A stretch of 32,246 nucleotides of DNA from Candidatus Azobacteroides sp. (GTDB lineage: Bacteria; Bacteroidota; Bacteroidia; Bacteroidales; WRGA01): positions 1 to 32,246 of the forward strand of contig WRGA01000100.1 of NCBI GenBank assembly GCA_009787405.1. The letters run 5' to 3'. Numbering within the stretch: position 1 is the first letter of the stretch; the number at the start of each line of letters is the position of its first letter. The translations under genes and the position numbers were made by a program. The notes under the pieces are model-generated. The model saw nothing but the letters and a program-made list of their open reading frames with translations. It did not search any database and was not told the origin of the DNA. Positions 16,629 to 21,162 of this stretch are shown here, one piece after another.

Positions 16629-16729
16629 CCGGAGTTGAATGCGTTTCAAGGTTTTCTATCAAAGTATCAATTAAGATTTTTTAAGTACAGAAAAAGAGTA
16701 TTTTATCTATTTTTTTGACAAAAAAAGTA

Positions 16730-16737
16730 TATTTTTG
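16730..16737 (+). promoter_or_regulatory. Candidate -7 promoter element of the G-tract leader unit
   Basis: TATTTTTG matches TAnnTTTG; a TTTG at 16714-16717 lies upstream but at a short spacing (12 bases). It would start transcription near 16744, ahead of the short ORF, the G10 tract and the terminator. It is the only good match between rsmD and the protease gene. Confidence 0.45.
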
Positions 16738-16829
16738 TCGCGAATAAAAACAGATTTCCGGATTTTAAAAAAAGAAAGAGAATCATCGTGTCATAAGCAG
16801 ACCGATTTGAAAAACAGATTATTTGGCAA

Positions 16830-16952
16830 ATGAAAAAAATGAATAGTTTCGACTTGGTCTCCGGCGAAAGCAACCGACACGTTGGGTGGGCGGTTTGCTG
16901 CAACTCCCGCATAAGTGGGGGGGGGGTAAGTCTCTTATTTTCAGTGAGTTAG
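16830..16952 (+). CDS. Candidate short ORF with a run of ten G (possible phase-variable peptide or leader)
   Basis: ATG at 16830 (a second in-frame ATG at 16839) opens a 40-residue ORF beginning MKKMNSFDLVSGESNRHVGW and containing a Cys pair (AVCCNS). At 16917-16926 there are ten consecutive G. With ten G the frame stops at 16950-16952. With nine it would stop immediately after the tract. With eleven it would run on through KSLIFSELEGFKIDIFHTA to a stop at 16994-16996 inside the terminator stem, giving about 55 residues. I do not recognise the peptide. It lies between a candidate promoter and a strong terminator, so it may equally be the body of a small RNA or the leader of the protease operon. 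A real protein product is uncertain. Confidence 0.35.
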   Translation: MKKMNSFDLVSGESNRHVGWAVCCNSRISGGGVSLLFSVS

Positions 16953-16980
16953 AAGGTTTTAAAATAGATATATTTCATAC

Positions 16981-17016
16981 AGCCGTATCGGATTAGGTTC
17001 CGGTGCGGCTTTTTTA
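16981..17016 (+). terminator. Intrinsic terminator or attenuator ahead of the papain-like protease gene
   Basis: An 11-pair stem (16981-16991 with 17000-17010, two of the pairs G-U) with an 8-base loop is followed by six T. A competing outer hairpin pairs 16977-16985 with 17023-17031 (nine perfect pairs) and is also followed by six T. The two cannot form together because they share 16981-16985. Confidence 0.75.
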
Positions 17017-17086
17017 GTGTGCCGGCTGTATTTTTTAATTTGTAAATATTGTTTTTGCATTAACTTTTGATTGATTATTAATAAAC

Positions 17087-19036
17087 ATGAAAAAACCGAC
17101 ATTATCCACCATTCGGGTGCAATTGTTTCTGCTTGCACTCTTTCTGCTGTCCGGCCCGGCCCGCAGTCAGAATATCGTATTAAATGTTGCGGGAAAAGTG
17201 TTTGTAAACGGGCAGCCGGTAAAAAAAGGCGACAATTTAAAGGATAATTTGAAAATAGCTTTCGGCGATCGGGATGCCGGACTGAAAGTGCTTTCACCGA
17301 CAGGTGTCTGCGTAATCAGATACAAAAACGGCGAAGAGAAAAACGCTTCAGAATTATCGGAATTAATAAAATCCGATATCCGGAAAAATTCCGCGGCAAC
17401 GTCTGATACACGGGCTTGGACAGTCAATCCCGGGAAGAAAGAGCAGGTGAAGGAGGTGGATATGCTGTGTACAACATTAAACGTTACGCCCGATAATGTG
17501 GACGAAATGTTCGGTCAATACATTACGGCTTATTGCGTGTCGGAATTTGAAACGCCCTGTTGGCAGGATATTGCACTGTTCCTGCAAACGAAATACGGGT
17601 TCAACCCTCCCCGATTCACCGGCGAACTGATGACAGAGGAGCAATATCAAAGCATTCCTCTTGTTCCCAAAGTCCGCTCGTTAACGCCGCTGCCCCCGTC
17701 AGTCTCCTTAAAAAAATACTGTCCCGTCCCGGGCAATCAGGGCCGGTACGGCACCTGCTCCGGTTGGGCGAGCGCTTATGCCGCCAGAACGATCAGTTGG
17801 GCGGTTAAAAACAATCTGACGGATGTACTCGACATTACCAATCAATCTTTTTCTCCCTCTTTTGTGTATACGCAGGTCAAAGACAGCAATGACGTCGATT
17901 GTCAGAGCGGCACCTATCTCAACCGGTGCGTGGGAGTGCTGAAAGAAAAGGGCGCCGTTTTCCAGACCGATTTACCGTTGCCTTTCCAGTGCAATCCGGA
18001 TATCACTCCGTTTTTTCAGGAAGCAAAGGCATACGTCATCAAAGACTATCAACGACTGACGGGATACGCGGGCATACAAAGTGAAGAAGATTTTGATAAT
18101 ATAAAAAAGGCTTTGGCCGATAATAAACCGGTAATCGGCAGCATAAAATGCGACCGGTCATTTGTGAATGCATGGGGCAGCAAGGTGTGGAGCGGAGCTT
18201 TTAACGATCCGCAGGAATGTCACGCCGTTTGCCTGACGGGTTATGACGACAACTTTGACAACGGCGACGGTACGTTAGGCGCCGTGGAATTGATGAACAG
18301 TTGGGGAACTGTGTGGGGAGACGGCGGCTTTATCCGGGTAAAATACCAAGACCTTACGAAAATACTGAACTATGCCATTTCGTTGTACGACGATGTTCTT
18401 CCCGTTCCGCCGCCCGAGCCGCCCAAGCCGCTGCCTGTTCCGCCTTCGCCGCCCGATACGTTGAAGCGGATGGAAGGTTCGTTCACGTTGCTTCTGGGCG
18501 ACGGGACGTCCATGCCGTTAGAAGGCGATGAAACGGCTTTCCGCAATTTAAAATTGGTAACCGTCGAAAAAATGACCTACAATATTTTAAATGCCTATCC
18601 CGGAGGAACCATGTTCCGCATAAACTTTACCAGTTCGCAGCCGGCTTATGTTTACGTCATTTCGACCGATTCGAAACGCAGTCCGTTGGCGCAACTTTTT
18701 CCCGACCCGGAGCGGAATATCTCTGCATTGCTCGATTTTAAATCCGAAGTATCTGTATCCATTCCGGATGACATGCAATACATTCAATTGGACGAAACGC
18801 CGGGCGAAGATTATCTGTGCGTCATTTATTCAAAAGAAGAATTGAATATGGGAGCCGTCAAAGATTCGTTGCAAAACAATGCCGATAAAAGTTTCGTAAA
18901 AATTGTAAAAGAAACCTTAGCCGATAAAATCGTGGATGATGATGAAGTGGCGTTCGAAAAGAATGTCATTGCCTTTAAAGCGGCCTCTGCAAAACATACG
19001 GCAGTTCCTGTTTTTATAAAAATAAAGCACCGATAG
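17087..19036 (+). CDS. Secreted papain-like cysteine peptidase (C1) with C-terminal DUF4384
   Basis: 649 residues with a signal peptide (hydrophobic VQLFLLALFLLSG, then ARSQ). The N-terminal about 100 mature residues contain a FecR-like beta segment (GKVFVNGQPVKKGD). The papain-like domain spans about 205-435 with all catalytic positions visible: Gln218 (oxyanion hole) in GNQG, nucleophile Cys224 in GTCSGWA, His379 in ECHAVCLTGYDD, and Asn404 in MNSWGTVWGDGGF. A proline-rich linker (438-457) leads to a DUF4384 domain (about 510-605; AYVYVISTD, QLFPDPE). No inhibitory propeptide of the classical type is seen. The caspase gene starts two bases after its stop. The 5' leader carries an attenuator-like structure and no good promoter nearer than 16730. 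Its natural substrate is unknown. Confidence 0.87.
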   Translation: MKKPTLSTIRVQLFLLALFLLSGPARSQNIVLNVAGKVFVNGQPVKKGDNLKDNLKIAFGDRDAGLKVLSPTGVCVIRYKNGEEKNASELSELIKSDIRKNSAATSDTRAWTVNPGKKEQVKEVDMLCTTLNVTPDNVDEMFGQYITAYCVSEFETPCWQDIALFLQTKYGFNPPRFTGELMTEEQYQSIPLVPKVRSLTPLPPSVSLKKYCPVPGNQGRYGTCSGWASAYAARTISWAVKNNLTDVLDITNQSFSPSFVYTQVKDSNDVDCQSGTYLNRCVGVLKEKGAVFQTDLPLPFQCNPDITPFFQEAKAYVIKDYQRLTGYAGIQSEEDFDNIKKALADNKPVIGSIKCDRSFVNAWGSKVWSGAFNDPQECHAVCLTGYDDNFDNGDGTLGAVELMNSWGTVWGDGGFIRVKYQDLTKILNYAISLYDDVLPVPPPEPPKPLPVPPSPPDTLKRMEGSFTLLLGDGTSMPLEGDETAFRNLKLVTVEKMTYNILNAYPGGTMFRINFTSSQPAYVYVISTDSKRSPLAQLFPDPERNISALLDFKSEVSVSIPDDMQYIQLDETPGEDYLCVIYSKEELNMGAVKDSLQNNADKSFVKIVKETLADKIVDDDEVAFEKNVIAFKAASAKHTAVPVFIKIKHR

Positions 19037-19038
19037 TG

Positions 19039-21162
19039 ATGAAAAAAACAGTTCTTTTTATAATCCTGTCATTTTTCATGAGTTTGTCTTTTGCTCAACA
19101 AACACGTAATCTGAAATTGGTAAAAGCGCCGACGGGAAGTTCTGGCGGTCAAAAGCGTAAAGCTGTTGTTATCGGTATGAGCAATTATGGCGGGAACAAA
19201 AGTTTGAATAATACACTAAACGATGCGGACGATATGGCGGATGTGTTTACCCGGCTTGGTTTTCAGGTAACGCTCCTTAAAAATAATGACTTGAGGAGTT
19301 TAAGAACCAATTTAACCGATTGGTACAATACAATTGAACGAAACGATATGGCTGTTTTCTATTTTGCAGGTCATGGAGTGGAAGTAAACGGCATCAATTA
19401 TTTAATCCCTGTAGATGCTGAACTGAATTCGGAAGCCGATATCCGGTACGAAGCTTTATCTGTCAATCAAGTGCTGGATAATATGGATTTGAAGCAGGTT
19501 CATTTTAAGTTGCTGATTTTAGATGCCTGTCGTGACAATCCGTGGACGAGAGGCTGGAGCCGGAGCAGCAGCGAAAAAGGTCTGGCTCAAATGAGCGCGC
19601 CCAAAGGTACACTCATTGCGTTTGCAGCGGCACCGGGCGCTACAGCGCAGGATGGCGGAGTTTATAATTTACGCAATGGTGTATTTACTCATTTTTTAAA
19701 AGAAGAAATTTTAAGAGAAGGCGCTTCCATAGATAATATATTGAACAGGGTAGCGGGTAATGTTTCCAATCTTACCAATGACCGTCAATTGCCCTACAAG
19801 ACGGGTATTCTGACAGAAGATTTTTACTTTATCCCGCCGGGTAACGACAGCCCCGGTCCGTTTCCGTTTCCGTCGCCTGCCGTTGATGTAGCGGGGGTGT
19901 TAAAAATAAGTTCTGTGCCGGAACAGGAAGCCGTTGTGATTATTGACGGAATAGGGCAACCGGAAAAAACACCGGCTTCGTTTCAATTAAGCGAAGGTTC
20001 CCATCGTGTCGTTGTAAGCAAAGAGTTTTATCTGGAAGCACACCGGGAGGTTAAAATAACGAAGGGACAAACTACCGAAATAAAATTATCTCTTACGCCA
20101 AATTATGCAAACATCAATATCCGCTCGGACGATGACGGGGAAATATGGATTGACGGAGAGTTGAAAGCAACCGGCAACTGGCAGGGAAAACTCGAAGCCG
20201 GGTTGCATGCGCTTGCAGTCGAAAAAGAATCGCACCGGCCTTATAAAAACAGTATTGATGTAAAGCCGGGAAATGACCGGAAATTGAAAATACCGGCGCT
20301 CAAGCCGGTTTACGGAAAATTGAATATCGCTTCCACCGGCAACATCAAAACAACAGTGTATGTGGATGGCGTGAAACGAAGCAAAGGAATTCCCTGTGTC
20401 TTAAAGGATGTACTTACGGGGGAAAGACAAATCCGGCTGGTATCCGGAAAGAGCGATTACCAAGCCTACGAAACCGTAGTGGATATCAGCGAAGGAAAAA
20501 TTACCGATTTGAATGTTGTATTGGCAAAAGCCGACGAAGAAAAACCGCTTGATGCCGGTATTACAATCGGAAAGGAACTGAATTTTGTAGTCAAAGGTGC
20601 AGAAAAGAAAAAAAAGTCTTCGGTAAAACTATACTTGGACAATCAATGGATCGGCGAGACTGATTCCGGCAAAAGATTTCCACTCAAATACACGGATCCC
20701 CGGCCGGGTACACATGAATTACGTGTAGTATGGGCTAAATACGAATGGAAGGGTAAAATTAATACGGCTATACAAACAAACTTTAAAGTGGATCTTAACA
20801 ATGGGAAAATTACCGATTTGGATGCCGTATCGGCGGAAGCCGACGAAAAAAAAACGTTTGATGCCAGCATCACAACCGGAAGGGAACTGAATTTTGTATT
20901 TAAAGGCATAGAAGAGTACCCCAATTCTTCGGTAAAACTATACTTGGACAATCAATGGATCGGCGAGACTGATTCCGACAAAGGATTTCAACTCAAATAC
21001 TCGGATCTGAAGCCGGGTAAGCGAGGCTGGCGCGTAGTATGGGCAAATCACGAATGGAAGGGCAAAATCAATACAGCTGAAAAAAAAGACTTTAAATTCG
21101 AGTACAAGAAAAAAAAGACCGGATTCGGATACGAAGAATTCCGTTTTGAATTAGTGAAGTGA
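19039..21162 (+). CDS. Secreted caspase-like peptidase (C14) with PEGA-like repeats
   Basis: 707 residues from the ATG at 19039; a GTG three bases earlier overlaps the papain-like gene's stop and is less likely. A signal peptide ends at SLSFAQ. The caspase p20-like domain (about 40-265) begins RKAVVIGMSNY and has the His-Cys dyad: His112 in YFAGHGVEV and Cys164 in LILDACRDNPW. After a short Pro-rich hinge come PEGA-type beta modules (about 285-500; VVIIDGIGQPEKTPASFQL, GEIWIDGELKATG, TTVYVDGVKRSKGIP). Two near-identical 103-residue modules close the protein, each with SSVKLYLDNQWIGETDS. PEGA domains usually contact surface layers or wall. It is probably co-translated with the papain-like gene, suggesting a two-protease exported system; partners and trigger are unknown. 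Confidence 0.88.
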   Translation: MKKTVLFIILSFFMSLSFAQQTRNLKLVKAPTGSSGGQKRKAVVIGMSNYGGNKSLNNTLNDADDMADVFTRLGFQVTLLKNNDLRSLRTNLTDWYNTIERNDMAVFYFAGHGVEVNGINYLIPVDAELNSEADIRYEALSVNQVLDNMDLKQVHFKLLILDACRDNPWTRGWSRSSSEKGLAQMSAPKGTLIAFAAAPGATAQDGGVYNLRNGVFTHFLKEEILREGASIDNILNRVAGNVSNLTNDRQLPYKTGILTEDFYFIPPGNDSPGPFPFPSPAVDVAGVLKISSVPEQEAVVIIDGIGQPEKTPASFQLSEGSHRVVVSKEFYLEAHREVKITKGQTTEIKLSLTPNYANINIRSDDDGEIWIDGELKATGNWQGKLEAGLHALAVEKESHRPYKNSIDVKPGNDRKLKIPALKPVYGKLNIASTGNIKTTVYVDGVKRSKGIPCVLKDVLTGERQIRLVSGKSDYQAYETVVDISEGKITDLNVVLAKADEEKPLDAGITIGKELNFVVKGAEKKKKSSVKLYLDNQWIGETDSGKRFPLKYTDPRPGTHELRVVWAKYEWKGKINTAIQTNFKVDLNNGKITDLDAVSAEADEKKTFDASITTGRELNFVFKGIEEYPNSSVKLYLDNQWIGETDSDKGFQLKYSDLKPGKRGWRVVWANHEWKGKINTAEKKDFKFEYKKKKTGFGYEEFRFELVK
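20617..20977 (+). repeat. Internal direct repeat in the caspase gene
   Basis: A block of 52 identical bases occurs at 20617-20668 and again at 20926-20977, 309 bases (103 codons) apart. The flanking modules are similar but diverged at the protein level (GKITDLNVVLAKADEEK versus GKITDLDAVSAEADEKK). This is an in-frame duplication of one C-terminal module, with the core recently homogenised or strongly constrained. Confidence 0.9.

Follow-up and report, generated by a model that had tools for sequence, protein, structure and literature searches.

In a window of 32,246 nucleotides (positions 1–32,246 of contig WRGA01000100.1, forward strand) from an uncultured Bacteroidales-like bacterium, a short ORF with a run of ten G lies between a candidate promoter and an intrinsic terminator, upstream of a secreted-protease gene. 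The locus raises the question of whether changes in the length of the run could switch the gene downstream. The ORF (16830–16952) has 40 codons when the run has ten G, with in-frame ATGs at 16830 and 16839. The run itself, the proposed slippage site, occupies 16917–16926, and the terminator (16981–17016) is composed of a stem (16981–17010; 12 pairs, 7 of them G-C, and a loop of 6) followed by a T-run (17011–17016). One such terminator is found, compared with 0.3 expected in shuffles. The description given by the first-pass annotation holds to the base. A second hairpin, ATACAGCCG/CGGCTGTAT (16977–17037; arms 16977–16985 and 17023–17031, then T6), overlaps the terminator, so the terminator 5' arm can alternatively pair with CGGCTGTAT further downstream. 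This alternative is present in the window copy only, where it is possibly a back-up terminator.

The window contains no other G or C run of at least seven; a run of ten G is expected 0.006 times per window and about 0.5 times per genome. The length of the run sets the frame, as the first-pass annotation had proposed: nine G give 32 residues, ten give 40, and eleven give 55 residues ending in the stem. A TAA (16927–16929) closes the frame with one G fewer and is kept in all five full copies of the element described below. A TAG (16950–16952) closes the ten-G frame. Measured to the stem, the stop lies 51 nt before it with nine G, 28 nt before it with ten G, and at +16, inside it, with eleven G.

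The 287-nt unit was used as a query against the bacterium's own genome (125 contigs totalling 2.79 Mb, 91% complete), and it matches at eight sites. Five are full copies (the window copy, C111, C79, C84, and C68) and three are partial, C113 and C107 being parts of the 5' half and C93 the 3' part only. The locus had been described as a self-contained unit; that it is unique is not supported. The full copies are 75–83% identical over the matched part and differ by about 20–25%. The copies lie in unrelated flanks and share their left and right ends, with the left limit of similarity at C-A/G-A/G-TTAAG and the right limit just 3' of the terminator T-run. Because the ends of similarity coincide in unrelated surroundings, we define the unit as extending from the promoter region to the terminator, about 300–375 bp; in the window this cassette spans about 353 bp (16668–17020).

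In C113 (L096, 4338–4663), a 5' piece of the cassette without the −7 box is fused to other sequence, giving an ORF of about 101 residues; part of the fusion (GVCAQKLLCEFASASPARIF) recurs in another genome (G193) and is probably a second dispersed repeat. C84 and C107 both have, in place of the ORF body, the same stretch of about 50 nt (CATCGTAGGGGCGTCCC...CTGCCTCAAC), which is probably another repeat.

Dispersed copies in unrelated flanks, with C113, C107, and C93 truncated and one of them fused to another repeat, would be expected of a decaying dispersed repeat, a MITE-like element or mobile remnant whose promoter and terminator persist by descent and whose ORF and G-run have no function. We consider this explanation unlikely. 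The two cassette ends are not linked by a terminal inverted repeat, no target site duplication is seen by eye in the aligned flanks, and a search for a parent transposon with either end recovers only the cassette copies in the own genome and one marginal 34-nt match (E 0.006). The BrickBuilt MITEs of Porphyromonas gingivalis are dispersed intergenic Bacteroidales repeats with promoter activity as well, but they carry terminal inverted repeats and an internal minisatellite (PMC4596501). The cassette has neither, and its leader ORF, G-run, and terminator are features of its own.

A blastn search of 60 relatives, covering two genomes from the genus and about 58 from the order, gives only two short matches (E 6e-4 to 9e-4). 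Patterns made from the conserved terminator and the sequence after the run have no match in GTDB contigs or IMG/VR, and a distant blastn search against phages and plasmids has none either. A sequence-only profile matches in 123 of 393 genomes of the order, with all matches outside the own genome weak (at most 27 bits). We rejected these weak matches as cassette copies; those inspected are AT-rich stretches or other poly-G sites. The full unit is therefore known only from its own genome. Homologues of the window protease in other families (37–40% identical) have no G or C run of at least six within 1.5 kb upstream of the match.

Conservation among the five full copies is uneven. Mean pairwise identity is 0.79 in the promoter region, 0.80 immediately upstream of the start codon, 0.44 across the ORF body, 0.88 between the G-run and the TAG, and 0.90 in the terminator. 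None of the five copies has lost any of the 12 terminator pairs, the changes being one-sided and preserving pairing. Functional parts are thus conserved and filler is not, which speaks against decay. In the whole genome there are five runs of at least nine G, four of which are at the homologous position of cassette copies. The tract lengths, which are read from a draft assembly and may be off, are 10, 11, 10, and 10 G in four full copies, and the tract is G4-A-G6 in C79. That four of the five copies retain the G-run, although they differ elsewhere by a fifth to a quarter, argues for selection on the tract, and again against a decaying repeat. This recurrence across copies is strong evidence; the rarity of a single ten-G run is less so.

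The sole other run of at least nine G (C36, position 2263) lies in the codons for the P-loop (TGGGKS) of a RecQ-like helicase. A P-loop (GGGGKS) encoded by the frame after the cassette run was considered and dropped, as the RecQ similarity at the other run looks like codon coincidence.

In each of the five full copies, the leader ORF begins at the same ATG and has no stop before the G-run. This openness is unremarkable by itself (permutation P 0.26), near the neutral expectation that a decaying repeat would also satisfy. The pN/pS of the ORF is 0.48 (permutation P 0.058), a marginal purifying signal, and that of the longer frame after the run is 0.30 (P 0.038, the best of three frames). Such a weak signal would fit a functional small protein of 40 residues, but the variable columns number 10, 12, and 13 by codon position, without three-base periodicity, the leader peptides match no family in Pfam or NCBIfam, and in C84 most of the ORF body is replaced by unrelated sequence. 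We regard a functional peptide as the least likely of the rival explanations, and as barely credible. A role of the peptide itself, raised in the first-pass annotation, is accordingly not upheld, the ORF body being the least conserved part and the codon test only marginal. Despite its replaced body, C84 retains an ORF without a stop before the run, suggesting that translation may matter and the peptide hardly.

The run could also act as RNA. Folding places it in the 3' arm of a hairpin (CUCCCGC-AUAA-GUGGGGG, 16904–16921), for which several registers are possible. The RepG-tlpB system of Helicobacter pylori has a variable G-run in an mRNA leader as well, where base pairing of a small RNA to the run gives graded control, without frame-stop geometry (PMC8295292). 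By analogy, the cassette run, located in a leader, would be bound by a C/U-rich small RNA or would change hairpin stability, and the effects of its length would be graded and not period-three. We judge this very unlikely. Only two of six copies fold better than shuffles in the hairpin region, no candidate small RNA is known for the cassette, and the frame geometry would be left unexplained.

That geometry was computed as the end of the ORF in each copy at one G less, as assembled, and at one G more. In all five copies, two of the three frames stop 28–54 nt before the terminator stem. The third frame stops at +16 in the window copy, +75 in C111, +45 in C84, +52 in C68, and −14 in C79, and thus reaches or crosses the terminator in four of the five copies and ends 14 nt short of the stem in C79. 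As assembled, the window copy, C79, and C84 are in the short frame ("off"), and C111 and C68 are in the long frame ("on").

A leader with this arrangement is known from the Pil1 and Pil3 loci of Streptococcus gallolyticus, where phase variation by an attenuation-like mechanism has been proven by mutation (PMC3894217). Repeats in the Pil1 leader ORF shift the frame; a stop at least 28 nt before the terminator turns the locus off, a stop within 4 nt of, inside, or beyond the terminator turns it on, and the pilus genes are transcribed accordingly (PMC3894217). We applied thresholds derived from Pil1 (off when the stop precedes the terminator by 28 nt or more, on when it lies no more than 4 nt upstream or anywhere beyond that point) to the cassette copies and to permutations in which each copy kept its indels while its substitutions were reassigned at random among sites sharing the same ancestral base. 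Four of the five copies fit (permutation P 0.007–0.0095), and with looser thresholds all five fit (P 0.002–0.005); both tests were designed after the pattern had been seen, and the P values are guides.

Pil1 and the cassette both have a short leader ORF with a slippage-prone repeat and an intrinsic terminator before a surface-protein gene. The Pil1 repeat is GCAGA x 22, whereas that of the cassette is a G homopolymer; Pil1 and Pil3 are two loci in Firmicutes controlling pilus genes, whereas the cassette is present in at least five full dispersed copies in a member of the Bacteroidota, with T9SS surface proteins as the targets. Pil1 is proven and the cassette is inferred in silico, with no sequence relation between the two found or expected. 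In the literature found, a phase switch of the attenuator type is described only for streptococcal pili.

We propose, with even confidence for and against, that the cassette may be a multicopy dispersed leader that acts as a G-tract phase-variable transcription attenuator. The proposal starts from the copies, their conservation, the frame geometry, and the gene neighbours, and supplies transcription, translation, slippage, and read-through as the putative steps between them. Transcription would start near 16744, and the short ORF would be translated. The peptide would be irrelevant, with only the position at which the ribosome stops being of consequence. Polymerase slippage in the G-run would shift the reading frame. 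In the two frames that end 28–54 nt before the terminator, the terminator would fold and transcription would stop (off); in the third frame the ribosome would reach or pass the stem, the terminator would not fold, and transcription would enter the gene for a surface or secreted protein (on). The reading predicts different read-through for 9, 10, and 11 G. Transcription–translation coupling in Bacteroidota is little known, and we count this against the attenuator reading.

The promoter was examined against the −7 consensus TAnnTTTG (PMC7366714). In the window, the −7 box TATTTTTG (16730–16737) is a full match and predicts the transcript start given above; among the five full copies, three match fully and the other two in 5 of 6 letters. 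The −33 TTTG box at a spacing of 18–22 nt is absent in the window copy and is canonically spaced only in C84. The promoter called before the ORF therefore stands as a candidate only, fitting at −7 but without a −33 box at the canonical spacing. Between the window terminator and the protease gene there is a further site, TAACTTTT (17061–17068), with TTTG 18 nt upstream (TTTG-N18-TAACTTTT), which is a possible separate promoter of the protease.

The genes after the terminators differ in distance and in kind. The C79 and C68 genes begin 30 and 50 nt after the terminator, respectively, and both encode BspA-type LRR proteins with a T9SS sorting tail; no promoter match is found between terminator and gene in either. 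The C93 relic keeps the terminator and traces of sequence leading into an LRR signal peptide. Since the LRR-associated copies, including C93, share the sequence from terminator to gene, leader and gene have travelled together, a point against the decaying repeat. C111 lies 205 nt before the gene for another T9SS-tailed protein, which has a promoter-like site of its own. The window copy lies 70 nt before the gene for a secreted papain-like (C1) protease with DUF4384 (17087–19036, forward strand), and C84 is followed at 200 nt by a small ORF rich in Cys and by a DUF5685 gene, a neighbour that is not an evident surface protein. T9SS-tailed genes follow three of the five copies (C79, C68, and C111), more than expected from the 82 T9SS-tail matches genome-wide (P about 4e-4; 0.007 with the two related LRR loci counted once; both assuming about 2300 genes). 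In the window, a gene for a caspase-domain (C14) protein with PEGA domains (19036–21162, forward strand) lies directly 3' of the papain-like protease gene and is the second gene of the operon (17087–21162).

These neighbourhoods bear on an explanation in which the copies are paralogous small-RNA genes, autonomous units acting in trans, and the genes that follow are bystanders transcribed from their own promoters. In its favour, the ends of the unit coincide with the promoter region and the terminator, the ORF body is poorly conserved, and candidate separate promoters precede the window and C111 genes. Against it, T9SS neighbours are over-represented, C79 and C68 leave no space for another promoter, and a non-coding RNA needs neither the persistent G-run nor the frame geometry. 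In addition, a search of Rfam 15 at gathering and permissive thresholds yields no family match, with only chance-level matches at the permissive ones, and the covariation term is −0.08 (five sequences), the terminator structure alone being clearly kept. We consider a small-RNA family as improbable as a decaying repeat. Neither accounts for the retention of the G-run, for the stop geometry, or for the two LRR genes that lie so close to the unit.

For the attenuator, only C79 and C68 make a strong case that the gene would depend on the leader, as the window protease and the C111 gene are each preceded by a separate promoter-like site. Control of the window protease by the leader is possible but not compelled, since TTTG-N18-TAACTTTT intervenes, and the protease may have its own promoter. 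The core of what the first-pass annotation had envisaged, a stop that slippage in the G-run would shift relative to the terminator and that would thereby gate a downstream gene, is supported by the comparison of five paralogous copies and matches the proven Pil1 system (PMC3894217). We also count against the attenuator that the −33 box is mostly missing, that the run of C79 is interrupted, and that the window, C111, and C84 genes are 70–205 nt away.

Among Bacteroidales, the best-known route to phase variation is DNA inversion. A homopolymer attenuator in a repeated leader would be a second route, acting on T9SS surface proteins. If the attenuator reading is true, the cassette would be the first phase-variable attenuator known to us in Bacteroidota and the first in the form of a dispersed gene-regulating repeat, and it would point to an independent origin, outside the streptococci, of the mechanism established for their pili. 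Such a switch would be recognisable from sequence alone, by the leader ORF, the G-run, the stop spacing, and the terminator. More tentatively, and as less likely than not, we suggest that a portable repeated cassette could switch several surface and secreted genes of one bacterium on and off independently, its five or more copies jointly giving combinatorial surface types.

Poly-G sites of other kinds are found in genomes of the order. Poly-G followed by the dyad TGATWATCA is commoner there than in reversed-pattern controls, and the combination, often with GTTA, is found at unrelated loci in nine genomes and in others. The block after the run in the window (CTTATTTTCAGTGAGTTAG) loosely resembles this motif. 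In the own genome, poly-G with TGATWATCA has two matches, compared with one in the reversed control; as it is not enriched there, we do not count it as the same thing as the cassette. In one genome (G362), a high-copy repeat consists of the dyad AACTGCTTGATTATCAAGNAGTT, G(8–17), TAARTG, and the dyad CTTGATAATCAAGCAGTT. Its pattern matches at 73 positions (several per site), compared with 0 in the reversed control, and a related motif has 57 matches, compared with 4 in the control.

G-runs inside coding sequences are found as well. Related secreted-protein genes in two genomes (G260 and G064) have a G-run inside the signal peptide, with ten G and an open frame in one genome and nine G and a closed frame in the other; these genes are likely cases of classical phase variation. 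In a genome of the same genus (G002), the reverse strand carries a gene, which from its sequence we take to encode an MBOAT/AlgI-like acyltransferase, with a run of 12 C in frame. With 12 C the frame closes at 82 residues, and another length would open 488 residues.
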